From an uncultured Sunxiuqinia sp. (GTDB taxonomy: Bacteria > Bacteroidota > Bacteroidia > Bacteroidales > Prolixibacteraceae): DNA of 64,000 nt. How positions within the stretch are numbered: position 1 is the stretch's first letter; each line of letters starts with the position of its first letter. The notes under the pieces are model-generated. The model searched no databases, was not told the DNA's origin, and worked only from the letters and a program-made list of their open reading frames with translations. Where the stretch lies: the NCBI RefSeq assembly GCF_947495665.1, contig NZ_CANLZV010000005.1:186001-250000 (forward strand), read 5' to 3'. The translations under genes were made by a program, and so were the position numbers. Positions 26,818-43,302 of this stretch are shown in pieces.

Positions 26818-27134
26818 AGTACTTCAATTTTTTATCCTGCGAAGTTACCGAATTCGATGGAATTCCAGAAATGGAAAGCCTGACTTTGACGGAGATTGAC
26901 TGCCTGCAGAATGCAACCGGGAGAACCACTTGGCTTGCGAATACCGCTTCTTATTGGTGTGACCAATTGCTGAAATCGGCCTGCACTTTTTTAATTCCGA
27001 ATGTGTATTTGGCCTTTTTCAGGGCCTGAACCGGGCTTTTCTGCTTCATAAACTTGAAAGTCAAAAGAACCATAGGTGAAAAAAATCAGGTCTGATACTC
27101 GCTTATTTGTGCTATCTTGCACAATGCTTTGGAA
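26818..27134. other. Intergenic region upstream of the FadR-type regulator
   Basis: Between riboflavin synthase and the regulator. It holds no convincing gene. The main feature is the palindrome at 26953-26967 (separate entry). A weak TATCTTG promoter-like box lies at 27113-27119, just before the regulator. Confidence 0.5.
26953..26967 (+). promoter_or_regulatory. Candidate FadR-family operator ATTGGT-GTG-ACCAAT
   Basis: A perfect palindrome of six-base arms around GTG. It has the form of GntR/FadR-subfamily operators and matches the ATTGGTnnnACCAAT pattern known for E. coli PdhR (family knowledge). It lies about 170 bases before the FadR-type regulator gene, so autoregulation is plausible but not shown. 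Confidence 0.5.
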
Positions 27135-27878
27135 ATGCAAAACGCCATGAATGATATTTTTAAAAAGATTGGTACGACACAAACTTTAAGTCAAAAAATT
27201 GAGCGGAATATCGAACGGGCTATTCGGGAAAAGAAACTTCCGATTGGTTCTAAGTTGCCTTCAGAGAGGGAGCTTTGTGAGATGTTTGCCGTGAGTCGAA
27301 CAGCGCTTCGCGAAGCCTTGCGGCGCTTAAGTGCCCGGGGGTTGATCGAAATCAGAAAGGGGAGTGGCATGGTCGTGAAAAAGATCAACATGAAAGATGC
27401 CATTGACTCGCTGAACCTGTATTACGACTTGAAATTTGACATGAACCTGATTAGTCAGATCATCGAGTTGCGTCTGGCTTTTGAACCGGAAATTGCAAAA
27501 ATGGCTGCTTTGAACCGGAAAGATGAGGACCTGGCTAATCTGGAGCAAAACCTGATTGATTTTGCAGCTTGCGATCCGGACAATACCCAGCTGGAATCGG
27601 ACATGGACAACAAGTTTCATTTAAATGTGGCCCGGGCTACCGGAAACCCGTTTGTGATTGTAACCATGGAACCGGTACACAACCTGCTGCCTCGCATGCG
27701 GAATTTTATTTATGCCAACATTGAGGGGGAAAAGGAAATTACCTTGGGTTATCACAAAGAAATTGTAAACGCCATACGCGAGCGCGATGCCGAGCGGGCT
27801 TACGAAAAAATGCAAGCCCACCTGGATCGGAATATGCAGGTTTATAATAAGTTCATGAAAATTCCCGAACAGGATTAG
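27135..27878 (+). CDS. GntR-family transcriptional regulator, FadR subfamily
   Basis: About 247 residues. N-terminal winged helix: SQKIERNIERAIREKKLPIGSKLPSERELCEMFAVSRTALREALRRLSARGLIEIRKGSGMVV, a textbook GntR domain. The C-terminal all-helical FCD domain contains IIELRLAFEPEIAKMA, a DNKFHLNVARATGNPF segment (Asp and His metal/effector ligands) and YHKEIVNAIRERD with the second His. Such regulators sense small organic acids or sugars acids. The frame can start at a TTG (27117), but ATGs at 27135 or 27147 follow a promoter-like box at 27113. It ends overlapping murQ tail-to-tail by four bases and probably controls the amino-sugar/muropeptide locus (inference). Confidence 0.88.
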   Translation: MQNAMNDIFKKIGTTQTLSQKIERNIERAIREKKLPIGSKLPSERELCEMFAVSRTALREALRRLSARGLIEIRKGSGMVVKKINMKDAIDSLNLYYDLKFDMNLISQIIELRLAFEPEIAKMAALNRKDEDLANLEQNLIDFAACDPDNTQLESDMDNKFHLNVARATGNPFVIVTMEPVHNLLPRMRNFIYANIEGEKEITLGYHKEIVNAIRERDAERAYEKMQAHLDRNMQVYNKFMKIPEQD

Positions 27879-28690
27879 TGTTTTTTGCTGGCCTCCAGTG
27901 CTTTGTTGACCGAACCATGCAAGAGCAATAAGCGTCTGGCCTTGGCTTCGTCGTAGCCCAGCTCGTCCATGATCATGCGGGTGCCCCGTGCAATGAGTTT
28001 TTGGTTGGTCAGCTGCATGTTTACCATTTTATTTCCTTTTACACGGCCCAGTTTGATCATGAGGGTAGTGGTAATCATATTCAGAATCAGCTTTTGCGAA
28101 GTGCCTGATTTCATGCGTGTGCTACCCGTAACAAACTCTGGTCCAACAATAGCTTCAATGGGAATATCTACTTGTTTGGCCAGTTCGCTGTTGGGATTGT
28201 TGGTAACACAGCCAGTCAGCAATCCATGTTTGCGTGCTTGCTTCACCGCTCCGATGACATAAGGTGTACGGCCCGACGCAGCAATGCCAATCACCGTGTC
28301 CAGCGGGGTAACCTTGTAATTTTGAAGCTCCTGCCAGCCCAGTTCTTCATTGTCCTCAGCAGCTTCAACCGCTTTTCGAATGGCCTGGTCTCCACCGGCA
28401 ATCATTCCAATAACCAAGTCATAGCCAACGCCATAAGTTGGTGGAATTTCTGATGCATCCAGAATGCCTAAACGTCCGCTGGTGCCGGCGCCAACATAAA
28501 AAAGACGTCCTCCTTTGGTCATCCGTTCCACGGTTTGTTTCACCAGCTTCTCAATTTGAGGAATGGTTTTTTGCACGGCAGGAAGTACCTTTTGGTCTTC
28601 TTGATGAATATTATCAAGCAGTTGCCTGACATCCATTTCTTCGAGGTTGTTGTAATGCGAATCGGCTTCAGTTACACTTTCTATTGTCAT
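27875..28690 (-). CDS. murQ: N-acetylmuramic acid 6-phosphate etherase
   Basis: About 271 residues. It cleaves the lactyl ether of MurNAc-6-P, giving GlcNAc-6-P and D-lactate, the committing step of MurNAc recycling. SIS-domain features: GGRLFYVGAGTSGRLGILDASEIPPTYG, the etherase signature IGIAASGRTPYVIGAV, and EVVTGSTRMKSGTSQKL-like VTGSTRMKSGTSQK. C-terminal UBA-like tail ARRLLLLHGSVNKAL is present. An ATG at 28720 would overlap the upstream kinase; 28690 (MTIESVTEAD) follows its stop by ten bases and is preferred. Second gene of the kinase-murQ pair, the same pairing as murK-murQ of Tannerella and Clostridium. Confidence 0.95.
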   Translation of the reverse strand: MTIESVTEADSHYNNLEEMDVRQLLDNIHQEDQKVLPAVQKTIPQIEKLVKQTVERMTKGGRLFYVGAGTSGRLGILDASEIPPTYGVGYDLVIGMIAGGDQAIRKAVEAAEDNEELGWQELQNYKVTPLDTVIGIAASGRTPYVIGAVKQARKHGLLTGCVTNNPNSELAKQVDIPIEAIVGPEFVTGSTRMKSGTSQKLILNMITTTLMIKLGRVKGNKMVNMQLTNQKLIARGTRMIMDELGYDEAKARRLLLLHGSVNKALEASKKH

Positions 28691-28700
28691 CTTTTCAAGT

Positions 28701-29549
28701 TTATTCTTCGGTATGTTCATGATACTCTTTCAACTTATCGATGGGCCCCTTCAGAATGATTGGTGTCGGAAACCCATAAGCTTGAGCCAATTCATCAATG
28801 ATTGGCTTGAAGTGCCAGGCCACAGAGCCCACAAAGCCAAGTGGATAATTTCCGGCTTCGGGCAGCTGAAGGATATTGCGTTCAAAAAACTCTTTGGCGC
28901 TCGTTGTCACCAGCCTGTGGCAGTAGGGGACTGCCAGGTGCCTGGATAGGAAAGGAGCAAAGCCAGCCAGGTACTTGTTTGGCCGTTCGGTCCGATAGAC
29001 TCGTGTCAATACTTCTGCCTGATCGAGTGAAAATTCGCTTTCAAACAGTTTTTTACAATCGGTAGGCATGATGTTTTTGAAATAGTCGCCCAACAGTTTT
29101 TTTCCGAGTACCGCCCCGCTAAATTCATCTCCAAGAATGAAGCCTAGCGGAGGAATGCCGCTAACGGTTTTCTGACCATCGTACAGGCAGCTGTTGGAGC
29201 CCGTGCCCACAATGCAGGCGATTCCGGCTTCGGTGCCAAATAATGCCCGGGCTGCACCCAAAGCATCGCTGGCTGTTTCTATTGAAACATTGGGGAATAG
29301 CCGTTCAAGGGCTTTTTTGATAACATCGCCTCGTTCCTGGTTGATAATGCCTGCCCCGTAGAACTCGATTTTGTCTACACTGGTTCCGGCGGGAAGAAGC
29401 AATTTTTCGCGAAGTTCTTCATAGATATCTTCACTGGTTCTGAAGAACGGATTAATTCCTTTCGTTTGAAAGGCCAGCTCTTTGGAAACCTTACCTGTCA
29501 GCAACCAATCGGTCTTGGTTGATCCACTATCAGCAATTAATCGAATCAT
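28701..29549 (-). CDS. BadF/BadG-type amino-sugar kinase (MurNAc/GlcNAc kinase-like)
   Basis: A 282-residue ASKHA-fold kinase. Phosphate 1 motif IADSGSTKTDWLL at the N-terminus, adenosine/phosphate 2 region ACIVGTGSNSCLYDG, and GFILGDEFSGAVLGKKLLG, all typical of the BadF/BcrA family containing NagK, human GlcNAc kinase and bacterial MurK. Because it directly precedes murQ, MurNAc is the likely substrate, making MurNAc-6-P for the etherase (inference from context and from known murK-murQ pairs). GlcNAc kinase activity is an alternative. A promoter box lies only five bases before the ATG, suggesting a leaderless mRNA. Confidence 0.88.
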   Translation of the reverse strand: MIRLIADSGSTKTDWLLTGKVSKELAFQTKGINPFFRTSEDIYEELREKLLLPAGTSVDKIEFYGAGIINQERGDVIKKALERLFPNVSIETASDALGAARALFGTEAGIACIVGTGSNSCLYDGQKTVSGIPPLGFILGDEFSGAVLGKKLLGDYFKNIMPTDCKKLFESEFSLDQAEVLTRVYRTERPNKYLAGFAPFLSRHLAVPYCHRLVTTSAKEFFERNILQLPEAGNYPLGFVGSVAWHFKPIIDELAQAYGFPTPIILKGPIDKLKEYHEHTEE

Positions 29550-29707: not shown

Positions 29708-32185
29708 ATGAACTATAAGCTAATTACGTTCCTTGTATTCTTTGTGTTTTGCGGGGCTTTAAGGCTTTTGGCACAGCCTGTTATTCGTATCAATCAACTG
29801 GGCTATCTTCCCAAGGCATTTAAAACAGCTGTTTTGTTGAGCCCTGAGGAGCTTATAATCGATAAGTTTGAGTTGTATGACAAAATTTCCGGAGAAAAAG
29901 TTTATGAAGCTTCGGCTGAAATTGCAGATGCCTCGCTTTGGGGGATGCAGTCTGCCTACCGGCTTGATTTTTCAGCTTTCCAGGAGGCCGGTGGTTTCTT
30001 TATTCAGGCAGGAGCAACGCAGTCGCCCTCCTTTCACATTGGAAACGATGTTTACGATGGAACGGCCGACTTTGTGCTGAACTACATGCGTCAGCAACGT
30101 TGTGGTTTCAACCCGTTTTTAAATGACTCTTGCCACTTACACGATGGTGTTATTGTCGATCATCCGACCCGTTCCGGCGAGCAGATTGACGTGACCGGTG
30201 GCTGGCATGATGCCTCTGATTACCTGCAATATTTAACGACTTCAGCCAATGCAACCTACCAGATGCTATTTGCCTACCAGCAAAATCCGGAGGCTTTTGG
30301 CGATAAATACCAGGCCAATGGCTTAGCCGGAGCTAATGGAATACCTGATATTTTGGACGAAGCGCGCTGGGGACTGGAGTGGCTTTTGAAAATGAATCCG
30401 GCAAAAGATGAGATGTACAACCAAATTGCTGATGATCGCGATCATAGAGGGTATCGTCTGCCTAACAAGGATACAGTTAGCTATGGGCTGGGGAAAGCAC
30501 GTCCGGTGTATTTTGTTACCGGAAAACCACAAGGTCTGGGAAAACATAAAAACCGGAGTACCGGGGTGGCTTCTACGGCTGCCAAGTATGCCTCGGCGTT
30601 TGCATTGGGCGCTCAGTTGTTTGATGATATAGACCCTCAGTTGGCTGAGGTGATGCACCAAAAGGCTGAAGACGCCTGGACTTTTGCACTTTCTGATCCC
30701 GGGGTTTTTCAAACAGCCTGCATGGTTTCTCCTTATTTCTATGAAGAGGAAAATTACATCGATGATATGGAGTTGGCAGCAGCTTCGCTTTACCAATTGT
30801 CTGGTAAGGATGACTATCAGCAACAGGCGCGTTACTGGGGTGCGCTGGAACCGGTTACCCCCTGGATGGCTTTGCATCGGGCAAGGCATTACCAGTACTA
30901 CCCGTTTGTTAACTTGGGACATGCTTTGCTGGCACAATCCGCCAATGAATCCACTTCCGAGCAATTTCTGGCCCTGATGAAACAAGGACTGAGCCATTTA
31001 AAGCACTTTGCAGGCAATGATCCTTTTCAGCTTGGAATTCCTTTTCAGTGGTGTTCCAACAATTTTGTAGCCGGGGCAGCTACTCAGGCCCGGCTGTACC
31101 GTCAGCTAAGCGGTGATGAGACTTTCGCAACGCTTGAAGCGGCCCTGGTTGACTGGCTTTTAGGCTGTAATCCCTGGGGAACAAGTATGATCTGCGGACT
31201 TCCTGAGGGAGGTGAATACCCGGAAAAACCGCATTCTTCCATCACGGTTCTGATGCATGAAACCACCACTGGCGGGCTGGTGGATGGACCGGTTTACCGA
31301 TCGATTTACGAAAGTCTGCGTGGGATTCTGCTTTTGGAACCGGATGAATATGCCGATTTCCAGAACGGGAAAGCCGTTTATCATGATGATATTGGCGATT
31401 ACTCATCGAATGAACCGACCATGGATGGCACGGCGAGCTTGAGCTTTTTATTTTCCTCGCTGGAAGTTGAGGGGCAAAAAGACCAAAACATGAGCCGAGT
31501 GGTAAAAGACAGTCAGGGGGCACTGGTGCGGATGGATACCACGAGCCGGAAGGTTTACCTGATCTTTTCAGCACATGACTACAACGATGGCGGCGAGCTG
31601 ATTGCTAAAACCTTGAAGAAACACAACCAGAAGGCTTCCTTCTTCTTTACCGGAGACTTTTATGAAAATCAGGATAACCAGAAATTAATTGCCCGGTTGA
31701 TGAAGGATGGCCATTATCTGGGGGCCCATTCAGATAAGCATTTGCTTTACGCTGACTGGGAGAAACGCGACTCACTGCTGGTAACGCGCGAAGTGTTTGA
31801 AAAGGATCTGGTAGCCAACTATCATAAAATGGCCGAGCTGGGCATTGATCCATCCGAAGCACCTTACTTTTTGGCGCCTTACGAATGGTACAATGAAGCC
31901 ATTGTCAACTGGAGTAAGCAGCTGGGTTTGCAAGTGGTTAATTTTACAACGGGGATACGCACCAACGCAGATTATACAACCCCTGACATGAAAAACTACC
32001 GATCATCAGAAAGGATTCTAAATGGCCTGAAAAGCTTTGAAAACGATCAACCGGCCGGACTTAATGGGGCTGTTATTTTGATTCATCTGGGAACAGCTGC
32101 TGAACGAACCGATAAGTTTTATCATCATCTGGATGAACTTTTGGATTTCCTGACCAATAAAGGCTACCAGCCAAGCCGTTTGTGA
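29708..32185 (+). CDS. GH9 glycoside hydrolase fused to a NodB-like polysaccharide deacetylase
   Basis: An 825-residue secreted protein (signal peptide to about 22). Residues 23-105 form a CelD-type N-terminal Ig domain (IRINQLGYLPKAFKTAVL). Residues about 115-585 are a GH9 barrel: the Asp nucleophile/base region TGGWHDASDYLQY (about 165) and the acid Glu in SSNEPTMDGTASL (about 566). Residues about 610-825 resemble a CE4 deacetylase: VYLIFSAHDYNDGGEL, then the metal histidines HSDKH (about 671) and APYEWY, LIHLG. The usual TFDDG motif is altered. GH9 includes cellulases and exo-glucosaminidases. With an attached deacetylase and murQ next door, an amino-sugar glycan is the likelier substrate (inference). 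First gene of the operon. Confidence 0.85.
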   Translation: MNYKLITFLVFFVFCGALRLLAQPVIRINQLGYLPKAFKTAVLLSPEELIIDKFELYDKISGEKVYEASAEIADASLWGMQSAYRLDFSAFQEAGGFFIQAGATQSPSFHIGNDVYDGTADFVLNYMRQQRCGFNPFLNDSCHLHDGVIVDHPTRSGEQIDVTGGWHDASDYLQYLTTSANATYQMLFAYQQNPEAFGDKYQANGLAGANGIPDILDEARWGLEWLLKMNPAKDEMYNQIADDRDHRGYRLPNKDTVSYGLGKARPVYFVTGKPQGLGKHKNRSTGVASTAAKYASAFALGAQLFDDIDPQLAEVMHQKAEDAWTFALSDPGVFQTACMVSPYFYEEENYIDDMELAAASLYQLSGKDDYQQQARYWGALEPVTPWMALHRARHYQYYPFVNLGHALLAQSANESTSEQFLALMKQGLSHLKHFAGNDPFQLGIPFQWCSNNFVAGAATQARLYRQLSGDETFATLEAALVDWLLGCNPWGTSMICGLPEGGEYPEKPHSSITVLMHETTTGGLVDGPVYRSIYESLRGILLLEPDEYADFQNGKAVYHDDIGDYSSNEPTMDGTASLSFLFSSLEVEGQKDQNMSRVVKDSQGALVRMDTTSRKVYLIFSAHDYNDGGELIAKTLKKHNQKASFFFTGDFYENQDNQKLIARLMKDGHYLGAHSDKHLLYADWEKRDSLLVTREVFEKDLVANYHKMAELGIDPSEAPYFLAPYEWYNEAIVNWSKQLGLQVVNFTTGIRTNADYTTPDMKNYRSSERILNGLKSFENDQPAGLNGAVILIHLGTAAERTDKFYHHLDELLDFLTNKGYQPSRL

Positions 32186-32226: not shown

Positions 32227-33696
32227 ATGACTAATTCGCTGATTCTGACTGTTATTCTTTTGTTTTTTGGCTTGTTGATGGTGATTTCTTACCTGACCTC
32301 AAGAAATGCCAGCAACGATACTTTTTTTACGGGAAATCGCCGGTCTCCGTGGTACTTGGTGGCCTTTGGCATGATTGGTTCTACCATTTCGGGGGTGACT
32401 TTTATTTCGGTGCCGGGCGAGGTGGGCAACACGGGCTGGACGTATTTGCAGTTTTTGCTAGGCAACTTTGTCGGTTACTGGATCATTGCATTGGTTTTAA
32501 TTCCTCTGTATTACAAGCTTCGGCTCGTTTCCATCTATACTTATCTCGATCAGCGTTTTGGCCTTCGTTCATACAAAACAGGAGCTTTCTTTTTCCTGCT
32601 TTCTCAAACCATTGGAGCCTCTTTTCGGCTTTACCTGGCGGCTGGTGTGCTTCAACTGGCTTTTTTCGATGCGCTGGGTATTCCTTTCTGGTTGACGGTT
32701 TTGCTCACCCTGCTATTAATCTGGATTTATACGCACCGGGCCGGAATTAAGACGGTTGTGTGGACTGACTCCCTGCAGACACTTTTTATTCTAGGGGCGG
32801 TAGGGATGACCATTTGGGTTATTTCGGAACAACTGGATCTGAGTGCCGGGGGTTTGGTGGAAACAGTGGCCAATCATCCGTACAGCCGGATCTTCGATTG
32901 GGATTGGCAGTCGAAAACCAACTTTTTCAAGCAATTTCTGGCTGGTTTGGGGATCGTGATCACGATCAATGGATTGGATCAGAATATGATGCAGAAAAAC
33001 CTGACCTGCAAAACGCAGCAGGATGCTCAGAAGAATATTTATTGGTTTAGCCTGGCTTTTATCATTGCCAACCTGCTTTTTCTGTGCCTCGGTGTAATGC
33101 TCTATTTTTTCGTGCAGCAAAAAGGGCTGGCTATACCCGAGCGTAGCGATGACCTTTTTCCGATGTTGGCGATGCAATATTTTGGGCCATTGGCCGGAGC
33201 ACTGTTTTTGCTTGGTATTCTGGCTGCAGCCTACTCTAGTGCCGACTCCGCCCTGACGGCGCTGACAACTTCGTTTTGCATTGATTTTCTAAATATTGAT
33301 GCTGAGGCGAATAATAGCAAAGCCACTCGTTTTAAGGTGCACATTGCCTTTTCATTGCTGGTTTTCCTGGTTATAGTCCTCTTCCGTATCATTAACGACG
33401 AAAGTGTGGTGACTGCTGTGTTTCGGGTGGCTGGGTACACCTATGGTCCCTTGCTGGGTTTGTTTACTTTCGGAATTCTGACCAAACGACAGGTGAAGGA
33501 TCGCTATGTTCCTATTGTAGGCTTGCTGTCGCCTGTGTTATCTTTGGTGATTGACCGCAATTCGGAAAGCTGGCTGGGTGGCTACCAATTTGGATTTGAA
33601 CTTTTGCTGCTGAATGGCTTACTTACGTTTATTGGCTTACTCTTGTTGACAAAAAAACATACAAATGAAAACAACGCAACGCTACCTCGCACTTGA
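32227..33696 (+). CDS. Sodium:solute symporter family (SSS) transporter
   Basis: A 489-residue inner-membrane transporter with about 13-14 membrane helices. SSS features: N-terminal helix, RRSPWYLVAFGMIGSTISGVTFISVPG (the Na-site region of TM2), YTYLDQRFGLRSYKTGAF, and later AAAYSSADSALTALTTSFCID, the TM8/TM9 region that binds sodium in this family. Substrates are usually sugars, sialic acids or amino acids. Within this locus MurNAc, GlcNAc or a small muropeptide is plausible; a dedicated MurNAc transporter occurs in the murTKQ locus of Tannerella. It overlaps the next gene by 32 bases. Confidence 0.9.
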   Translation: MTNSLILTVILLFFGLLMVISYLTSRNASNDTFFTGNRRSPWYLVAFGMIGSTISGVTFISVPGEVGNTGWTYLQFLLGNFVGYWIIALVLIPLYYKLRLVSIYTYLDQRFGLRSYKTGAFFFLLSQTIGASFRLYLAAGVLQLAFFDALGIPFWLTVLLTLLLIWIYTHRAGIKTVVWTDSLQTLFILGAVGMTIWVISEQLDLSAGGLVETVANHPYSRIFDWDWQSKTNFFKQFLAGLGIVITINGLDQNMMQKNLTCKTQQDAQKNIYWFSLAFIIANLLFLCLGVMLYFFVQQKGLAIPERSDDLFPMLAMQYFGPLAGALFLLGILAAAYSSADSALTALTTSFCIDFLNIDAEANNSKATRFKVHIAFSLLVFLVIVLFRIINDESVVTAVFRVAGYTYGPLLGLFTFGILTKRQVKDRYVPIVGLLSPVLSLVIDRNSESWLGGYQFGFELLLLNGLLTFIGLLLLTKKHTNENNATLPRT

Positions 33697-34774
33697 TGTG
33701 CTCCGCGGCATTACGATTGCTGCGATGATAACCGTGAATACTCCCGGCAGCTGGTCGCATATCTATGCTCCTTTGCGCCATGCAGCCTGGCATGGATGTA
33801 CGCCCACCGATTTGGTCTTTCCATTTTTTCTGTTTGTGGTTGGGGTATCCATGTTTTTCTCTTTTTCAAAATACGGCAATCAGCTGAACAGGGAGTCGCT
33901 GGTGCGCCTGAGTCGGCGAACGGTGTTGATCTTTGCCATCGGCTTGTTTCTGAATTCTTTTCCGCAGTGGAGTAAGGATTTTTCTCAGTTGCGGATTATG
34001 GGCGTGCTGCAGCGGATTGCACTGGTTTATGGGTTCGCCTCCTTGATTGTCTTATCGGTTCAAAAGAAGTATCTGCCATACATAGGTGGAGGTATTTTGT
34101 TGGTTTATTGGGGAATAATATATTTTATGGGAACGGGTGACCCATACAGCCTGGAGAGCAATGCCACCATCCCGTTTGACCGAATGATTCTGGGTGAGCA
34201 ACACCTGTACCGGGGCTTTGGTATTCCTTTCGATCCGGAGGGTTTGTTGAGTACATTGCCGGCTATTGTAACGGCAATACTGGGTTACTTGGCCGGTTCG
34301 CTAATCAAGCAGCATGAGAAACTGCAAGTACCCAAACAATTGGTGCTTTGGGGCATTGCAGGGGTGATCGGCGGATTGGTCTGGGGACAGTTTTTCCCAA
34401 TCAACAAGGCCCTTTGGACAAGCTCGTATGTGCTTTATACGGGAGGGCTGGCCAGTATTTTCCTGGGTGTGTTGGTCTGGATTATCGACTTGAAGCATTA
34501 TCAGAAGTGGACCTCCTTTTTTGTGGTATTCGGCATGAACCCCTTGTTTATCTTCGCGCTGTCTGGCTTGTGGGCCATTACCATCAGCCGGATTATTCGT
34601 TGGGAAGGCCGGAATGGCGAAATGCAAAATGCTTACAGCTGGCTTTACCAAGAGGTTTTTGTACCATTGGCCGGTCCTTTGAACGGGTCGCTCCTGTTTG
34701 CCCTTACCCACATTGTTTTCTTCTGGTTTATAGGCTATGTGCTTTACAAGAAGAAAATATTCATCAAGGTTTAA
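33665..34774 (+). CDS. NagX/DUF5009 membrane protein (HGSNAT-like acyltransferase family)
   Basis: A 369-residue membrane protein with about ten helices. The N-terminus RYLALDVLRGITIAAMITVNTPGSW and the segment HAAWHGCTPTDLVFPFFLFVVGVSM are the signature of the family of human heparan-alpha-glucosaminide N-acetyltransferase, and of NagX found in bacterial GlcNAc gene clusters. The histidine in HAAWHG corresponds to the active-site His of HGSNAT (family knowledge). It could transacetylate terminal glucosamine across the membrane, which would complement the deacetylase domain upstream (inference), or assist amino-sugar uptake. Its start lies inside the symporter gene. Confidence 0.87.
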   Translation: MKTTQRYLALDVLRGITIAAMITVNTPGSWSHIYAPLRHAAWHGCTPTDLVFPFFLFVVGVSMFFSFSKYGNQLNRESLVRLSRRTVLIFAIGLFLNSFPQWSKDFSQLRIMGVLQRIALVYGFASLIVLSVQKKYLPYIGGGILLVYWGIIYFMGTGDPYSLESNATIPFDRMILGEQHLYRGFGIPFDPEGLLSTLPAIVTAILGYLAGSLIKQHEKLQVPKQLVLWGIAGVIGGLVWGQFFPINKALWTSSYVLYTGGLASIFLGVLVWIIDLKHYQKWTSFFVVFGMNPLFIFALSGLWAITISRIIRWEGRNGEMQNAYSWLYQEVFVPLAGPLNGSLLFALTHIVFFWFIGYVLYKKKIFIKV

Positions 34775-34808: not shown

Positions 34809-37799
34809 ATGAAACGGATTCTCTTTTTTAGCTTGCTTTTCATTCTTCTTGCGGCAAAAACGCAGGCTCAGTTTGTGATGAATGTCTTGCTGCAGGACCA
34901 TTGGGTTGATTCTGTGTTTCAATCGCTGACACCCGAACAGCGCATCGGACAGCTGGTTTGGATTAACACGGCAGCCAATGCAGACCTGGAGAAACAATTT
35001 GAAGTTGCAGAACTGATTGAAAAATATAACCTCGGCGGAGCTATTTTTTTCACCGGCGACCCGGTTAAGCAAGCTCGTTTAACCAACTTGTACCAATCGG
35101 TTGCTCAAACGCCTCTGATGATTGCCATGGATGCAGAGTGGGGGGTAGGAATGCGGCTTCCAGGAGTTATTGCTTTCCCATACAATATGATGTTGGGGGC
35201 ATCGGATGATCCTGAATTGATAAGGGAAGTCGGGAAAGAGATGGCCCGGCAGATGAAACGGCTGGGTGTGCAAATGAGCTTCGGGCCTGTTGCCGACAGC
35301 AACACGCAGCCGTTGAATCCGATTATTGGGATGCGTTCTTTTGGTGAATCTCCGCAACGTGTGGCCGACTTCAGTTTGGCGTATATGCAGGGCTTGCAGG
35401 AGAATGGTATTTTGGCAGTAGCCAAGCATTTCCCTGGGCATGGCGACACCCAAACTGACTCGCACTACAGCCTTCCGCTGGTTCCTTATTCACGTGAACG
35501 ACTCGACTCTGTTGAGCTATTTCCTTTTCGTCGGTTGGCCGATGCAGGGATTGCAGGCGTGATGACGGCTCACCTGAATGTTCCGCAACTGGCGTTGAAG
35601 GGAATTCCTTCAAGCTTGTCTGCCCGCATTATTCAAGGAGTTTTGCGTGATGAATGGCAATACGATGGCTTAGTTGTTACTGATGCCATGAACATGGCCG
35701 GGGCAAATACCTATGGTGCGCCGGGCGAGATAGAAGCACTGGCACTAAAAGCAGGCAATGATGTGGTGGAGTTTCCGAAAGACATCGAGCAGGCGATAGC
35801 AGGCATTAAACGGGCAATTGAGCAGGGGAATCTTAGTTGGGACGAAGTGAACAGCAAATGCCGGCGTGTTTTGGCAGCTAAGCGTTGGGCCGGACTTGAT
35901 CAACTGGAGCCGGTTGATCCGCATGGTTTGCTTGAGGACCTGAATGCCCCGCAAACCGAATTGGTAAAGCGGAAAGTGATTGAGTCGTCGCTTACTTTGC
36001 TTGAAAACAGCCAGGAGCTGATTCCGCTGATGCGGCTCGATACCCTTCGCATAGCCTGCCTGACGGTAGGAAGTACCCCGGTGACGCCTTTCCTGAAGAT
36101 GTTGGCGAAATACACGGAGATCCACGATTTTTTTCTTCCGGAGAATTTTTCAAAAGAGGAGCTGGAAGCCGTAAAGGAGCAGTTGCAGGACTTTAATCTG
36201 GTGGTGGCAGGCCTTCACTTGTATGAAAGTAAAACAAGGCGTTCGATGCAGGTGGGCAACATGCAGCGCACCAGACCGGAACGTCCCTATGGATTAAGCG
36301 GGCAGACAGAAGCTTTGCTGAACTACCTGGCCAATGATAAAAAGTCCATTGAGGTATTTTTCTCCAGTCCTTATGCTTTGGCTGAAGTGAAGAACTTTCA
36401 GGCACCCGAAGGCCTGATTATGGCTTATCAGAATGATTCACTGGTGCAGGAGCTCGCGGCTCAGTTAATTTTTGGCGGCATTAGCTCGTCCGGGAAGTTG
36501 CCGGTCAGCCTGGGAGACTATTACGCGGCAGGCGATGGTTTGACCATTCTTGAACCGATTCGTCTGAAGTATACCATTCCGGAGGAAGTGGGTTTTAACA
36601 GCAGCCGGCTGAATAGGCGCATTGATTCTTTGGTGAGAGAAGCCATCGTCAAGAAGGCCACTCCGGGCTGCAGCGTGTTGGCTGCCAAGGACGGGAAAGT
36701 AATTTTCAATAAAACCTATGGGTACCACACCTATGAACAACTGGTGCCTGTGCGGGAAAATGACCTGTATGATTTGGCTTCGGTGACCAAAATTACCGGC
36801 GCGCTGGCCGCTGTCTTGAAAATGACCGATGATGGACTGATTGATTTGGATGAGCCGTTCTCAAAGGCCTGGCCCGACTGGCAAAAACGTTTGTTCCATC
36901 GTTCCAATAAAGAAGCACTGAGTTGGCGGGAAATTCTGGCGCATCAGGCAGGATTGATACCCTACCTGAACTTTTGGACTGAAACCGTGGACGATGGCAG
37001 CTTGAAACCGCGTTGGTATTCCTTTCAGAAGCAGAAGGATTATACTCTGGAGGTGGCTCCGGGCTTGTTTCTGAATGAAAAGTTTACAAAGAAAATGTAT
37101 CGCACCATTCGGAAGTCCAGCCTGAATGAGCCAGGCAAGTATGTGTATAGCGGACTTTCGTTTTTGGTCATACCAAAATTGACTCAGCGGCTAACCGGCC
37201 AGAATTACGTCGATTTTCTGGATCAAAACTATTATCAGCGTCTGGGGGCTGGCCGCTTGACCTACAACCCGCTTGAAAAGTTTTCAGTAAACGAAATTGT
37301 GCCTGCAGAATACGATCAGTACTACCGCAAACGTCAGATACACGGCACGGTGCATGATGAAGCAGCGGCTGTGCTGGGTGGCGTATCCGGAAATGCCGGT
37401 TTGTTTGGCACGGCCAACGACCTGGCCAAGCTGATGCAGATGTATTTGCAGATGGGCACATACGGCGGATACCAATATCTGCAGTCTCAAACAATGCAGG
37501 AGTTTACCCGTGTGCAATTTCCGGAAAATGACAACCGACGGGGGCTGGGCTTTGATAAGCCCTTACTCAACAACCGGGAGTTAACGCCCGATGCCGCTTA
37601 TCCTTGTATCGGAGCCAGCCCTGCAAGCTTTGGACACTCTGGGTTTACCGGCACTTTTGTTTGGGCCGACCCCGAAAGTCAACTGGTTTATATCTTTTTG
37701 AGCAACAGGGTTTACCCCAGCCGCGAAGGCAATTTATTAGGTCGAATGAATGTTCGAACAGGCCTCCTTCAGATTTTTTACGATGAACTTGCTCAATAA
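34809..37799 (+). CDS. NagZ-type GH3 beta-N-acetylglucosaminidase fused to a class C serine hydrolase
   Basis: A 996-residue secreted protein (signal peptide ending TQAQ, about residue 22). Residues about 25-365 are a GH3 barrel with the NagZ signature KHFPGHGDTQTDSHYSLP (about 205-222, catalytic Asp-His dyad) and the nucleophile Asp in VVTDAMNMAGA (about 293). Residues about 370-590 are a GH3 C-terminal alpha/beta domain. Residues about 610-996 are a beta-lactamase/esterase-like domain: SVTK (SxxK, about 657), a YSG motif (KYVYSGLSF) and HSGFTG (about 942). Likely action: removal of GlcNAc from GlcNAc-MurNAc fragments, with the second domain cutting a peptide, amide or ester bond (inference). 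Confidence 0.9.
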   Translation: MKRILFFSLLFILLAAKTQAQFVMNVLLQDHWVDSVFQSLTPEQRIGQLVWINTAANADLEKQFEVAELIEKYNLGGAIFFTGDPVKQARLTNLYQSVAQTPLMIAMDAEWGVGMRLPGVIAFPYNMMLGASDDPELIREVGKEMARQMKRLGVQMSFGPVADSNTQPLNPIIGMRSFGESPQRVADFSLAYMQGLQENGILAVAKHFPGHGDTQTDSHYSLPLVPYSRERLDSVELFPFRRLADAGIAGVMTAHLNVPQLALKGIPSSLSARIIQGVLRDEWQYDGLVVTDAMNMAGANTYGAPGEIEALALKAGNDVVEFPKDIEQAIAGIKRAIEQGNLSWDEVNSKCRRVLAAKRWAGLDQLEPVDPHGLLEDLNAPQTELVKRKVIESSLTLLENSQELIPLMRLDTLRIACLTVGSTPVTPFLKMLAKYTEIHDFFLPENFSKEELEAVKEQLQDFNLVVAGLHLYESKTRRSMQVGNMQRTRPERPYGLSGQTEALLNYLANDKKSIEVFFSSPYALAEVKNFQAPEGLIMAYQNDSLVQELAAQLIFGGISSSGKLPVSLGDYYAAGDGLTILEPIRLKYTIPEEVGFNSSRLNRRIDSLVREAIVKKATPGCSVLAAKDGKVIFNKTYGYHTYEQLVPVRENDLYDLASVTKITGALAAVLKMTDDGLIDLDEPFSKAWPDWQKRLFHRSNKEALSWREILAHQAGLIPYLNFWTETVDDGSLKPRWYSFQKQKDYTLEVAPGLFLNEKFTKKMYRTIRKSSLNEPGKYVYSGLSFLVIPKLTQRLTGQNYVDFLDQNYYQRLGAGRLTYNPLEKFSVNEIVPAEYDQYYRKRQIHGTVHDEAAAVLGGVSGNAGLFGTANDLAKLMQMYLQMGTYGGYQYLQSQTMQEFTRVQFPENDNRRGLGFDKPLLNNRELTPDAAYPCIGASPASFGHSGFTGTFVWADPESQLVYIFLSNRVYPSREGNLLGRMNVRTGLLQIFYDELAQ

Positions 37800-38005: not shown

Positions 38006-41000
38006 ATGAAAAAAAGCTTATTACTTATCTTTCTTCTGTGTTTGGTGATACAGCTCACCCAGGCACAAACCCGGTCGATTAGTGGAGAAGTCCGCAGCAA
38101 ATCGACCAACGAACCTCTTCCCGGCGTATCGTTGGTGGTAAAAGGAACCACCCAGGGTACGGTGACTGACGTTGATGGTCGGTATAGCCTTTCTGTGCAG
38201 CAAGGTGCAGTTCTTCAAGTTAGCTTTATTGGAATGCAACCGCAGGAAGTTACGGTTGGCAATGCTTCAACGATCAATATTGAATTAGAAGCTTCAGTTG
38301 AGGATTTGACTGAAGTTGTGGTAGTGGGCTATGGCACACAAAAGAAAGCGAACCTTACCGGTGCTGTTGCTTCGGTGGATACCAAGGTGTTGGAAGCAAG
38401 ACCCATTGCCGATGTCGGGCGTGGATTGCAGGGATCGACTCCTGGGTTGAACGTGGTTGTTCCCAGTGGAGAGGTTGGTTCTGACCCGATTTTGAAAATT
38501 CGTGGACAACTTGGTTCTTTAGAAGGAGGTTCATCCCCTTTGATTTTGCTGGATAACGTAGAAATTCCTTCCATTCAATTGGTTAATCCTGATGATATTG
38601 AATCGATTTCTATTTTGAAAGATGCCGCTTCAGCTTCAATTTACGGATCAAAAGGGGCTTTTGGAGTTATTCTTATTAACACCAAAAAGGGAGCCAAAAC
38701 GGAAAGCGTTAATGTTTCATATTCCGGCAACCTGTCCTTCCAGAATATTTCGAAGAAAATAGAAATGGCCGGAGTTGATGCTTTGGAGTACTCGGTGCTG
38801 GCCATGGAGCGTGTTGGTGCCACTTCAATAGGAGCTTTCTGGAAAGTAACCAGAGATAGTTATGAAAAGGCCAAAGCTTGGGAAGAAACGTGGGGAGATC
38901 AAGTAGGAACAGGTGATCCGATGCTATATGGACGCGATTGGTATGTTGATGCGGATAACCGCAAATTGGGACTTCGTACCTATGATCCGTACGACTACAT
39001 GATTAAGGAGTGGACACCTACGCAGCAACATAACTTGTCGGTGAGTGGTAAATCAGGAGCTACGGATTACAACATTGGTTTTGGTTACCTGGATCAAACA
39101 GGTATGCTGAAGCCAGCCAAAGAGGATGATTTTAAACGTTACAATGGCTCGGTGCGTGTTGGTACGCAAGTGAATAGCTTTCTGAAGGTCCATGGAGGAA
39201 CAATCTTTTCCAAGCGGGTTAAGCGTTATCCGTTTGCCACAGCTTCAACAACTGCTGACCCTTGGTTGTATCTTTACCGTTGGAGCCCAATCTATCCGCT
39301 CTCTACGGAAGACGGAGATCCCATCCGGAGCCCGGTTTCAGAAGTGCAACAGGCCAATACGGCTTTCCAGGAAACCAATTATACCAGCTTAAACGGAGGT
39401 TTTGTTTTAACTCCGCTTGAAGATTGGAATATCAATTTCGATTACACACATGCCAATGAGGAATACATCAACAAAAATCCGGGAACACGCTATACGGCCC
39501 GCAACAGCTGGTCGGCAGGAATTCCTAAGTATGATGAAAGCGGAAACCGGATTTATGTGAATGATGCCGGGCAACCCGTTTCTTCAACTGCTCCGGGAGC
39601 TATGGCCGCCTACGAATTGAATATGATGACCTATACAGGTGTGGGCTCAAACCCTGACCGGGTTTACCGCTATGCCCGAAACCGGAAATGGAATACCATC
39701 AATTTAAGTACCACTTATGATTTGGATATTAATGAGATCCATGCCTTCAACTTCATGTTGGGTTTGAACCGTGTGGGCTATGAATTGGGGTCAAACTACT
39801 CGCAACGCCTGGAACTGGTGGATTATGAGAATCCGCAGTTTGATTTGGCAACCGGGACACAAACGGCAGGCGGAAGTGAATATTGGGAGTCTCAACTCGG
39901 ATTTTTCGGGCGTGTAAACTATAATTTCAAGGAAAAATATTTGTTTGAAGCTAACCTTCGCTACGACGGAACTTCCAAATTTCCTTCTTACCTGCAATGG
40001 CAGTGGTTCCCTTCATTTTCTGCCGGATGGCGTGTAAGTGAAGAACCTTGGATGGAGGCCCTGCAGCCAGCGCTTAGCTCGTTGAAATTTAGGGGATCCT
40101 GGGGATCAATCGGTGACCAGTCGGTCAGCAACTCCTTGTACATTCCAACGATGAGTGGCGGTTACAACAGTTGGGTAATTAGTGGCGCACGGCTTTATGA
40201 ATTCGGCACCCCAACATCGGTGTCTTCTTCCATTACCTGGCAGGATATTACAACACTCGACCTGGGCTTCGATGCTCGTTTTGTTGACAATAAACTTGGC
40301 CTTACCTTCGACTGGTATCGTCGCGATACGGAAAACATGATTGTGCCTCAGGAAGGTTTGCCGGTAACTTACGGAACCAGTGCTCCTAAAGGCAATTTTG
40401 GTTCACTCCGAACCAATGGTTTCGAAGTCCAGCTGGATTACAACCACCGGTTTAAAAATGGCCTGGGCATTAACGTAGTTGCAACTCTGGCCGATGCCAA
40501 AACGAAAATTACCAAGTATGGATCAACTACCAGTATCAACTCTTGGTATGTTGGAAAAACCTACGGCGAAATTTGGGGCTACGAGACCGACCGGCTGTAC
40601 CAGAAAGATGACTTTGTGTATGATAGCAACGGAGACCTGGTCACTACGGTAACAGAAGATGGTTATACGATTAATCAGCTGTCGGACTCAGAAGCGGCAA
40701 CGCAAGGCTATATCCAATCGGGTAACTTCCGGTTTGGCCCTGGCGATGTGAAATTTAAAGACCTGAATGGTGATGGTGAAATTAATGCAGGAAATCGCTT
40801 AACAGATGATCACGGAGATCTGAAAGTGATTGGAAACAGCACTCCTCGCTACGAATATGGTTTGCGCTTGGGCGCTGACTATAAAGGATTCGACTTGTCT
40901 GTATTTATTCAGGGAGTAGGCAAACGCGATGTATGGGGAAGTGGCTTCCTGGCTATCCCCGGATTTCAAGCCTCTGACGGTGCTATGCCGCAGGCCATTG

Positions 41001-41377
41001 CCGGCGATTTCTGGAGAGAAGACCGGACCGATGCGTTCTACCCGGCTCCCTATAACCTGGCTGGGAGCAGCACTTCTTTAAACATGGTTCCGCAAAGCCG
41101 CTACTTGCTTGACATGTCTTACCTAAGGGTGAAAAATATTACGGTTGGTTACAGCCTTCCGGAGAACCTGGTGAGCAAAATGTATCTGAAAAGCCTGCGC
41201 GTTTATGTGGCGCTGGAAAACTTCTTCACCAAGGATAACTTGCGTGATCTGCCGATTGATCCGGAAGAAATTGCCGGTTATTCCATGTGGAACAGTTCGA
41301 ACTACAATTTGGGCCGTACCGGAGTGGGTACGCCTACCTTTAAAAGTGCGTCGGTTGGCGTTCAGTTGAACTTCTAA
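38006..41377 (+). CDS. SusC-like TonB-dependent outer-membrane transporter
   Basis: A 1123-residue outer-membrane receptor. Order: signal peptide (IQLTQAQ), a carboxypeptidase-D regulatory-like domain (SGEVRSKSTNEPLPGVSLVVKG, about 25-100), the SusC hallmark VVVGYGTQKKANLTGAV at the start of the plug (about 106-122), plug motif ISILKDAASASIYGSKGAFGVI, then a 22-strand barrel ending VGVQLNF. It imports oligosaccharide or peptide-sized ligands with TonB energy and pairs with the SusD protein 12 bases downstream. There is no STN domain and no adjacent anti-sigma/ECF pair, so regulation is probably by the FadR-type or another one-component regulator. The ligand is inferred to be a peptidoglycan fragment. 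Confidence 0.95.
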   Translation: MKKSLLLIFLLCLVIQLTQAQTRSISGEVRSKSTNEPLPGVSLVVKGTTQGTVTDVDGRYSLSVQQGAVLQVSFIGMQPQEVTVGNASTINIELEASVEDLTEVVVVGYGTQKKANLTGAVASVDTKVLEARPIADVGRGLQGSTPGLNVVVPSGEVGSDPILKIRGQLGSLEGGSSPLILLDNVEIPSIQLVNPDDIESISILKDAASASIYGSKGAFGVILINTKKGAKTESVNVSYSGNLSFQNISKKIEMAGVDALEYSVLAMERVGATSIGAFWKVTRDSYEKAKAWEETWGDQVGTGDPMLYGRDWYVDADNRKLGLRTYDPYDYMIKEWTPTQQHNLSVSGKSGATDYNIGFGYLDQTGMLKPAKEDDFKRYNGSVRVGTQVNSFLKVHGGTIFSKRVKRYPFATASTTADPWLYLYRWSPIYPLSTEDGDPIRSPVSEVQQANTAFQETNYTSLNGGFVLTPLEDWNINFDYTHANEEYINKNPGTRYTARNSWSAGIPKYDESGNRIYVNDAGQPVSSTAPGAMAAYELNMMTYTGVGSNPDRVYRYARNRKWNTINLSTTYDLDINEIHAFNFMLGLNRVGYELGSNYSQRLELVDYENPQFDLATGTQTAGGSEYWESQLGFFGRVNYNFKEKYLFEANLRYDGTSKFPSYLQWQWFPSFSAGWRVSEEPWMEALQPALSSLKFRGSWGSIGDQSVSNSLYIPTMSGGYNSWVISGARLYEFGTPTSVSSSITWQDITTLDLGFDARFVDNKLGLTFDWYRRDTENMIVPQEGLPVTYGTSAPKGNFGSLRTNGFEVQLDYNHRFKNGLGINVVATLADAKTKITKYGSTTSINSWYVGKTYGEIWGYETDRLYQKDDFVYDSNGDLVTTVTEDGYTINQLSDSEAATQGYIQSGNFRFGPGDVKFKDLNGDGEINAGNRLTDDHGDLKVIGNSTPRYEYGLRLGADYKGFDLSVFIQGVGKRDVWGSGFLAIPGFQASDGAMPQAIAGDFWREDRTDAFYPAPYNLAGSSTSLNMVPQSRYLLDMSYLRVKNITVGYSLPENLVSKMYLKSLRVYVALENFFTKDNLRDLPIDPEEIAGYSMWNSSNYNLGRTGVGTPTFKSASVGVQLNF

Positions 41378-41389
41378 AACGAAACAGTT

Positions 41390-43228
41390 ATGAAAAAACA
41401 GATATTACTTATTTTACCCTTGGTTATACTTGTGCTGGGAGCCTGTGATGATTTCCTGGATAGGTCTTCCTTAACCGAGATGAACGATGATACCTACTGG
41501 ACAACAGAGAACAACCTCCGATTATTCTCCAATGGCTTTTACTCCAACTATTTTGTGGGGTACAACTCGGGATGGGGAAGTGCCTATGCGCCATTACGTG
41601 GTTACTATTTTTCAGATGATTTCTCATCCACCGGCAAGCTGGGGAGCTTTGAAACTCAGGCGCCTTCTTCCCGGGCTGATGATGACGAGGTAGTATCGAT
41701 GATGAATAGCTACGCCGGGCCTACCTGGAACTTTGCCTGGGTGCGCAAAGCCAATATATTCATGGAGCGCATTGCAGCGATGCAGGAAGCCGGAGTTGAG
41801 CTGAGCGAAGAAACTTTCCAGCACTGGACGGCTGTGGCCCGTTTCTTCCGGGGATTTGAATACAGCCGCCTGGTGAGCGTGTTTGGCGATGTGCCGTACT
41901 ATGGCGAAGTGATTGATGATTCGAACCTGGACGCACTTTATAAGGACCGGGACGACCGGACCTTTGTGATGGATCAGGTGTATGATGATTTTGTGTATGT
42001 GATGGAGAATATGCGTACTTCGGACGGTAATGCACAATACCTGAACCGTTACATTGCGGCGAGTTTCATTTCGCGCCTGATGTTGTTTGAAGGAACCTGG
42101 CAGAAATACCACCTGAACAATACGGAAAAAGCAAGCAAATACCTGGAACTGGCTGCTGATGCTGCCGACTTTGTCATGTCTTCCGGTATGTATTCTTTTA
42201 CAAGCGATTTCCGTTCTTTGTTTGGGTCTCAGGATTTGGCCGGGAATAAAGAAGTGATCCTGTTCCGGCATTACGATGCTTCAATTGGGATTACTCACCA
42301 TGTTGCATCCTATTCCAACCTAACAGAAGGACAGTATAATGCGCCTAACCTTTCTTTGGCCAAAGCATTTATCTGTACCGATGGCAAGCCGTATCAGTTG
42401 TCGGCAGTTCCCAATGCCGATGAGCTCAGCATTCAAAATCTGGCAGCCACTCGAGATCCCCGTTTTGAAGCTACTTTTTGGGATGCGCCAAAAAAAGAGT
42501 CGAGCACCTTGCTGTATGCTTGCAAGTTTATTGATCGGGTAGGGGTTACTTATTATGGATCAACTTATCCTTCGATGTATGGATCAAACACCAACACCAA
42601 TGATGCGCCGGTGATGCGTTTGGGTGAAGTGGTTTTAAACTGGATTGAAGCCAAGGCAGAGCTTGCAACCATGGGAGGAGCAGCGGTTACTCAAGCCGAC
42701 TTGGATGTGTCGATTAATGCAATTCGCAGTCGTCCATTGGACGCAGTAGCCATTGAGAAGGGCATTCAGCAAACTGTTCCGTTACTTCTGGCCGAGTTGC
42801 CTGATGACCCGGCAAGAGATGCTGATGTGTCAGCACTGATTTGGGAAATTCGCCGCGAACGCCGCATGGAGTTTGTCTATGAGCATTCGCGCCTGCTGGA
42901 TATTAAGCGCTGGAATAAGATCGACTATATGAGTGGTGCCGATAATCCGGATATTCTTCGTGGACCTTGGATTGATTTTGAAACCGATTTCCCTGAGTGG
43001 CTGGTTGAAGAAAAAGAAGGTGTTCTGCGTGTTGAAACAGCTGATGGAACTGTTGTAACCTACAATGGCTCCAACGCGGCCGAGATTGTTGGCTACTATG
43101 TTCCTGAGAATGTTTCAGACCGCGATCCTTTTACTGACCGGGTTTACCTGGCTCCTGTGGGCAATGCCCAGATCAGTGAGTATATGGATAAAGGATACAC
43201 CCTGAGTCAAACTCCGGGTTGGGAATAA
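41390..43228 (+). CDS. SusD/RagB family substrate-binding lipoprotein
   Basis: A 612-residue surface lipoprotein (signal peptide, lipobox LGAC, Cys at about 19, followed by DDFLDR as typical of SusD). The TPR-like helical N-terminus (AWVRKANIFMERIAAM ... HWTAVARFFRGFEYSRLVSVFGDVPYYGEV) and the C-terminal RRERRMEFVYEHSRLLDIKRW motif place it firmly in the family. It forms the lid of the SusC transporter and binds the glycan or glycopeptide. A 16-base-pair terminator directly follows. Confidence 0.95.
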   Translation: MKKQILLILPLVILVLGACDDFLDRSSLTEMNDDTYWTTENNLRLFSNGFYSNYFVGYNSGWGSAYAPLRGYYFSDDFSSTGKLGSFETQAPSSRADDDEVVSMMNSYAGPTWNFAWVRKANIFMERIAAMQEAGVELSEETFQHWTAVARFFRGFEYSRLVSVFGDVPYYGEVIDDSNLDALYKDRDDRTFVMDQVYDDFVYVMENMRTSDGNAQYLNRYIAASFISRLMLFEGTWQKYHLNNTEKASKYLELAADAADFVMSSGMYSFTSDFRSLFGSQDLAGNKEVILFRHYDASIGITHHVASYSNLTEGQYNAPNLSLAKAFICTDGKPYQLSAVPNADELSIQNLAATRDPRFEATFWDAPKKESSTLLYACKFIDRVGVTYYGSTYPSMYGSNTNTNDAPVMRLGEVVLNWIEAKAELATMGGAAVTQADLDVSINAIRSRPLDAVAIEKGIQQTVPLLLAELPDDPARDADVSALIWEIRRERRMEFVYEHSRLLDIKRWNKIDYMSGADNPDILRGPWIDFETDFPEWLVEEKEGVLRVETADGTVVTYNGSNAAEIVGYYVPENVSDRDPFTDRVYLAPVGNAQISEYMDKGYTLSQTPGWE

Positions 43229-43245: not shown

Positions 43246-43286
43246 GAAAGACTCACTGGATTTTTCATCCGGTGGGTCTTTCTTTT
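43246..43286 (+). terminator. Rho-independent terminator after susD
   Basis: GAAAGACTCACTGGAT / ATCCGGTGGGTCTTTC pair over 16 positions with two G-T pairs and a five-base loop, followed by TTTTG. It would end or attenuate susCD transcription before the phosphoesterase gene. Confidence 0.82.
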
Positions 43287-43302
43287 GATAAAGCCAATTG
43301 AA

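Follow-up and report, generated by a model that had tools for sequence, protein, structure and literature searches.

A conserved CE4-derived subfamily with altered motifs, tied to one GH9 subfamily, and its possible role in peptidoglycan salvage in Bacteroidota

The stretch of DNA considered here, 64,000 nucleotides from an uncultured Sunxiuqinia sp. of the Prolixibacteraceae (contig NZ_CANLZV010000005.1, positions 186,001 to 250,000; hereafter the window), carries on its plus strand a single open reading frame (ORF; 29708-32185) for an 825-residue protein in which a GH9 hydrolase is joined to a C-terminal domain related to the CE4/NodB deacetylases. Judged from its sequence conservation, the altered CE4-like domain is a distinct and conserved CE4-derived subfamily, and within the phylum it co-occurs near-obligately with one GH9 subfamily. 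Tentatively, and with rather less than even confidence, we propose that the two are the halves of one conserved enzyme, a secreted GH9 with a CE4/NodB-derived partner, whose target would be the beta-1,4-linked amino-sugar chain in fragments of peptidoglycan.

The protein opens with a probable signal peptide (residues 1-22, 29708..29773), visible in the sequence and as a hydrophobic helix at residues 2-18 of the AlphaFold2 model, and is probably secreted. It continues, all on the plus strand, with a CelD_N Ig-like domain (residues 23-105, 29774..30022; Pfam PF02927, 5e-15), a GH9 catalytic domain (residues 116-581, 30053..31450; PF00759 Glyco_hydro_9, 2e-72, with 3x17 as structural match), and a CE4/NodB-fold domain with altered motifs (residues 600-825, 31505..32182). 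In the last of these, Polysacc_deac_1 (PF01522) is matched at residues 610-744 (9e-13), and by structure the domain spans about 600-825. All three Pfam matches exceed their gathering scores, so that the fusion, which a sequence-only reading of this DNA had placed at exactly these coordinates, is borne out. AlphaFold2, run on the whole protein with 56 homologues, gave a mean predicted local distance difference test score (pLDDT) of 90.9 and a predicted template modelling score of 0.88; the C-terminal domain modelled alone reached a pLDDT of 92.1. Compared with CE4 structures, the latter model scores Z 22-24.5, led by BA0150 (4m1b; Z 24.5, root-mean-square deviation 1.8 over 191 aligned residues) and including PdaA (Z 22.0). 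The domain thus has the NodB fold, and the CE4-like character ascribed to residues 600-825 from the letters alone is upheld by structure prediction.

The motifs of this domain were followed through an alignment of 119 CE4-like subfamily sequences, with the roles of the CE4 motifs assigned according to PMC10967932. In motif 1, FSAHDYNDG (residues 620-628, 31565..31591), S621 and A622 stand in place of two Asp residues; the catalytic-base position is Thr or Ser and the metal position Gly or Ala in 119/119, and the canonical tandem of base and metal-ligand Asp occurs in 0/119. Candidate replacements are H623, D624, and D627: residue 624 is acidic (Glu or Asp) in 112 of the 119, and of the listed motif types in which it is not, most have Asp at residue 623. 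Motif 3, FLAPYEWYN (F721-N729, 31868..31894), has likewise lost its Arg (0/119), residue 722 being Leu, Met, Ile, or Val throughout, while the second Pro is retained in 115 sequences. The base Asp and the motif-3 Arg, which in canonical CE4 enzymes are linked by a salt bridge or hydrogen bond (PMC10967932), are therefore absent together across the subfamily. The remaining motifs are unchanged in every sequence, namely H674 and H678 of motif 2 (HSDKH, residues 674-678, 31727..31741), the motif-4 Asp D755 (31970..31972, placed by profile alignment with the DW of PdaA), and the motif-5 His H793 (32084..32086). In addition, new invariant residues have appeared, E726 beside the motif-3 prolines (119/119), D700, and R800, and residue 802 is Asp in 118 of 119. 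Two claims of the sequence-only reading, that the HSxxH metal histidines are kept and that FSAHDYNDGG (residues 620-629) sits at the site of the TFDDG region of canonical CE4 enzymes, are both confirmed, the second proving to be a trait of the whole subfamily. A sequencing oddity or a decayed motif is ruled out by the 119 relatives, and a pseudogene-like or chance origin of the domain is excluded by the conservation. The subfamily also stands apart when the C-terminal domain is searched against 395 genomes from the phylum: it found 42 places in 41 genomes at E <1e-59, with ordinary CE4 proteins at E >1e-7. We read the substitutions as a pocket that is rewired but working, with a putative metal site and catalysis.

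The GH9 part forms a subfamily that is just as sharply separate, with matches at E <1e-123 and the next at about 1e-57. Across 108 relatives the catalytic Asp/Asp/Glu residues D168, D171, and E569 are invariant, in line with the earlier statement that the acidic residues are intact. The best structural match of the model is the endoglucanase 3x17 (Z 36.9). The closest solved endoglucanases (3x17/J30 type) carry a PHHR motif near the active site; here H509 is kept, and the Arg is found in 0/108 relatives, residue 511 being Ser, Ala, or Pro. Some Vibrionaceae GH9 enzymes cut glucosamine as well as glucose linkages, which provides a precedent for an amino-sugar substrate (PMC6096475). In exo-glucosaminidases of the VC0615 type, the subsites beyond -1 are blocked by two long loops, helix 1-2 and helix 9-10; the stretch taken here as the helix 9-10 loop looks short in the secondary structure of the model, the helix numbering being uncertain.

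Counted genome by genome in the same 395, the CE4-like domain is present in 41 genomes, the matching GH9 in 40, and both in 36, against an expectation of about 4. Only five genomes have the CE4-like domain alone and four the GH9 alone, so that 36 of the 45 with either part have both. By Fisher's test the association reaches p 4e-41 when genomes are counted and 2.6e-26 when genera are, of which the genus-level value is the better guide, as the test corrects for shared ancestry only partly. By match coordinates, the two parts are fused in 23 of the 36 genomes, adjacent in eight, and unlinked in five; the association therefore does not depend on linkage alone.

The genes around the protein point to the substrate. 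The sequence-only reading had named a symporter, a NagX-like protein, and a NagZ-type enzyme downstream, all of which are there; it had passed over a MurQ and a N-acetylmuramic acid (MurNAc) kinase upstream and a NlpC/P60 protein and an epimerase downstream, as well as a second domain in the NagZ-type protein. MurQ, the N-acetylmuramic acid 6-phosphate etherase (27878..28720, minus strand), scores 368.9 bits with NF003915 (cut-off 168) and 306.8 with TIGR00274 (cut-off 302). Next to it, a MurK-like N-acetylmuramate kinase (28701..29549, minus strand) matches 8ow9, 8oqw, and 8ow7 in the PDB at 1e-66 to 1e-53, which are MurNAc/amino-sugar kinases of Tannerella forsythia (PMC10465942). This pair begins 159 bp upstream of the GH9/CE4-like gene and supplies the MurQ and MurNAc-kinase-type genes expected of a Bacteroidota MurNAc-catabolic locus of the murTKQ type. 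On the plus strand downstream lie an SSS-family sodium/solute symporter (32227..33696; PF00474, 8e-25), a NagX/HGSNAT-family membrane protein that may be an amino-sugar N-acetyltransferase or a MurT-like transporter (33665..34774; PF07786, with NF046061 at 152.8 bits, under its cut-off of 480), and a GH3 NagZ-type domain (motif KHFPGHGDTQTDSH) fused to a C-terminal AmiE/PBP4B-type beta-lactamase-fold domain with SVTK (34809..37799). Further on are an SH3 plus NlpC/P60 peptidoglycan endopeptidase (45262..46434; PF00877, 6.6e-25) and an enolase-superfamily protein resembling L-Ala-D/L-Glu epimerases (46441..47586; PF13378/PF02746, with DgcA at 196 bits and PRK15129 at 131 bits, both under cut-off). 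MurQ, the MurNAc kinase, NagZ-AmiE, NlpC/P60, and the epimerase suit a peptidoglycan-salvage cluster; the kinase and etherase upstream and the endopeptidase and epimerase downstream indicate peptidoglycan in particular.

The other members of the locus, all on the plus strand, are a GntR/FadR-type regulator (27117..27878), assigned by family matches with NanR as best subfamily and 92% conserved in a same-genus genome, a SusC-type TonB-dependent transporter (38006..41377), a SusD-type lipoprotein (41390..43228), and, by family matches, a protein combining a calcineurin-like phosphoesterase with a PQQ-type beta-propeller (43285..45147). The SusC/SusD pair (38006-43228), lying within an apparent peptidoglycan-salvage operon, suggests import of wall fragments across the outer membrane. 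Homologues of the phosphoesterase/beta-propeller protein stand beside GH9/CE4 genes in Pontibacter and in five other loci (L148, L075, L051, L094, and L108; L and G numbers denote loci and genomes). Tat-like signals open both the epimerase-like protein (MKHNRRNFIRTTG) and its L075 homologue (MSGRRDFIKKTG), so that the protein may act outside the cytoplasm. From 20 to 64 kb of the window, no AmpG, LytB, or NamZ was recognised. NamZ is encoded on another contig of the same genome, where its neighbours are a further SSS gene and a further GH3/beta-lactamase gene; in that locus (L152, G000:C7:100100-120000) the symporter is 54% identical and the GH3/beta-lactamase fusion 45% identical to those of the window, with NamZ in the place of GH9-CE4. 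NagA (TIGR00221) was not found in the whole window genome (G000), although MurQ should yield N-acetylglucosamine (GlcNAc) 6-phosphate.

In relatives, the same-genus genome G400 retains the series GntR-MurQ-MurK-GH9CE4-NagX-GH3/AmiE plus the phosphoesterase, and the same-family genome G406 has the order AmpG-GH9CE4-LytB-DUF4922-GTF-GHL10-NagX-MurK-MurQ. Loci of the Marinilabiliales type read LytB-GH9CE4-AmpG, L070 has AmpG, LytB, and NamZ together, Pontibacter loci hold MurQ, Amidase_2, GHL10, and a D-2-hydroxyacid-dehydrogenase-type protein, and in L068 AnmK adjoins CE4-GH9. Six Chitinophagaceae-type loci (L055, L087, L091, L098, L104, and L114) have a beta-lactamase-fold protein directly upstream of the pair, and a seventh genome (L141, 8714-10624; L031 holds the same ORF) joins the CE4-like domain not to GH9 but to a serine hydrolase of the beta-lactamase fold (PF13354). 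A FAD/Fe-S protein of the D-2-hydroxyacid-dehydrogenase type lies near GH9/CE4 genes in L045, L054, L056, L059, L061, L070, L079, and L094; MurQ is also present in all of these loci except L094, an arrangement in keeping with a possible oxidation of the D-lactate that MurQ sets free. At the level of whole genomes, MurQ is present in 41/41 of those with the CE4-like domain and in 279 of all 395 (p 2.5e-7 when genomes are counted, 0.007 when genera are). The peptidoglycan context is strong in the family of the window and in certain other lineages, whereas in many it gives no signal.

For the substrate, the bond cut, the order of action, and the metal site of the GH9/CE4 pair, we infer the following scheme. 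The CE4-like domain would remove an acyl group, most likely N-acetyl, from backbone GlcNAc or MurNAc, using a putative site composed of His674 and His678 with new acids (Asp/Glu624 or Asp623, and Glu726) in place of the Asp pair and the Arg. The GH9 would then hydrolyse the beta-1,4 bond at the free-amine sugar, a type of substrate taken by some GH9 enzymes, where NagZ-type enzymes are not expected to cut. Acetylated sugars and stem peptides would fall to the NagZ-AmiE, NlpC/P60, and epimerase proteins of the window, NagX would re-acetylate the released glucosamine or import the product as a MurT-like transporter, and MurK with MurQ would feed MurNAc into GlcNAc 6-phosphate and D-lactate. NagX has been proposed to acetylate periplasmic glucosamine and is a distant relative of the MurNAc transporter MurT (PMC9007349).

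Several observations weigh against this proposal. The domain lacks both motif-1 Asp residues and the motif-3 Arg, its nearest CE4 structure (4m1b) belongs to a pseudoenzyme without activity, and the closest solved GH9 relatives are endoglucanases. When 39 loci were sampled blind to their neighbours, a peptidoglycan or amino-sugar marker of any kind lay within about 10 kb in six, compared with 4/40 control regions; MurQ adjacency was seen in 0 of roughly 26 more distant genomes among those with coordinates listed; and some loci carry NagA, GH20, or GH18 instead, which would suit chitin. Moreover, NamZ, a known exo-muramidase, is present in 378/395 genomes, the window genome among them, so that the pair is not simply its replacement. 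Two findings partly offset these counts: MurQ is present in 41/41 genomes, and no rival cellulose or xylan cluster was recognised among the annotated neighbours of GH9/CE4 genes. Two broader ideas were given up on these counts: a general linkage of GH9-CE4 to MurQ is unsupported outside some lineages, and GH9-CE4 as a stand-in for NamZ was dropped in its general form; at most, the two loci are parallel.

If the loss of the Asp pair and the Arg in 119/119 is taken at face value, the GH9 may act on an amino-sugar glycan while the CE4-like domain is a dead, substrate-binding pseudoenzyme, a reading that the CE4 pseudoenzymes 4m1b and 7bkf among the structural neighbours would accommodate. We consider it unlikely, as the motif-2 histidines, the motif-4 Asp, and the motif-5 His are invariant and new invariant acids have arisen, whereas BA0150 (4m1b) is altered in motif 2 too and is metal-free (PMC6115787), and the inactive 2VYO lacks both His residues (PMC10967932).

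Chitin deserves the same degree of reserve. On this account, the CE4-like domain and the GH9 would be a chitin/chito-oligosaccharide pair, a deacetylase with a glucosaminidase on the model put forward for chitin breakdown in Vibrio, and the peptidoglycan neighbours would reflect shared GlcNAc catabolism. Vibrionaceae GH9 exo-glucosaminidases do serve chitin catabolism (PMC6096475), the window genome has one GH18 gene and at least 11 GH20 genes, and several loci have a chitin-like content: NagA, a NagX-like protein, and GH20 in L100, NagA in L037, L041, L082, and L131, and GH18 with a ROK kinase and an MFS protein in L138. On the other hand, the GH18 gene of the window genome sits on another contig, and MurQ, MurK, NlpC/P60, the epimerase, AmpG, and LytB, found in the window and in relatives of its genus and family, are not needed for chitin. 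As a general account this is improbable; for some relatives of the protein, chitin is a possible substrate.

An ordinary beta-glucanase, acting on cellulose or xyloglucan and carrying the CE4-like domain as an accessory, is less probable still, and we regard it as quite unlikely. GH9 membership and the endoglucanases as best solved matches speak for it, but the window genome has a single GH9 gene, with no second one found, the Arg of PHHR is substituted subfamily-wide, and no cellulase or hemicellulase neighbour was recognised among the annotated proteins. The guess made from the sequence, that an amino-sugar polymer is the substrate rather than cellulose, is accordingly the better supported, by the neighbourhood, by MurQ in 41/41, by the sole GH9 gene, and by the loss of the PHHR Arg in 108/108. 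The slimmest chance is given to a CE4-like domain that removes another group, a MurNAc O-acetyl ester or the lactyl-peptide amide, so that the GH9 or partners cut the exposed strand: with its base and metal site altered, the domain could be fitted to another bond, O-acetyl esterases are among the CE4 enzymes (PMC6115787), and amidase and beta-lactamase-fold partners lie nearby, but separate proteins supply the amidase functions in most loci.

A bolder form of our proposal is possible but doubtful, namely a hitherto undescribed route by which Bacteroidota and members of some other phyla would dismantle peptidoglycan, in which a CE4-derived deacetylase with a new active site (His-His plus new acids, with neither motif-1 Asp nor motif-3 Arg) would free the backbone amine and GH9 would cut there. 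If this were true, some of the Bacteroidota proteins labelled "GH9 cellulase" in databases would belong to the machinery of cell-wall recycling, an active site could be built in two ways within the CE4 family, and peptidoglycan salvage in Bacteroidota would gain a glycan-cutting step. The strict co-retention of the GH9 and CE4-like parts makes for a clean and testable substrate prediction.

No description of a GH9 plus CE4-like pair was found in the literature searched, which left most subscription journals and CAZy outside, so that an earlier description may exist. Among known systems, the best-scoring solved CE4 types by sequence profile are of the MurNAc-deacetylase type, 2j13 and PdaA. PdaA (1ny1/1w17) and BA0424 (2j13), both MurNAc deacetylases, share with the domain described here the NodB fold, the metal His pair, the motif-4 Asp, and the motif-5 His; they differ in that here both motif-1 Asp residues and the motif-3 Arg are replaced, E726 and R800 are additional invariants (with D802 in 118/119), and a GH9 is fused or linked. 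The pseudoenzyme BA0150 (4m1b), the nearest structure, is likewise non-canonical in motif 1, but its motif 2 also departs from the consensus and the structure contains no metal (PMC6115787; PMC10967932), whereas motif 2 is invariant in our 119 sequences. On the GH9 side, VC0615 and PBPRA0520, exo-glucosaminidases of Vibrio and Photobacterium that act on glucosamine linkages (PMC6096475), also combine GH9 with an N-terminal Ig-like domain and score Z about 29-30 to the model; however, they are only about 20% identical to the protein and are without a CE4 domain. Finally, the ampG-lytB-ybbC-murTKQ peptidoglycan-scavenging operon of T. forsythia shares with the window the MurK-MurQ pair and a NagX/MurT-type protein, and in relatives the likeness extends to AmpG, LytB, GTFs, and GHL10, the G406 cluster being close to the published operon (PMC5388701). 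The published account of that operon names neither a GH9 nor a CE4-like member (PMC5388701), and the window, unlike it, has in addition the SSS symporter, SusCD, NagZ-AmiE, NlpC/P60, and the epimerase.

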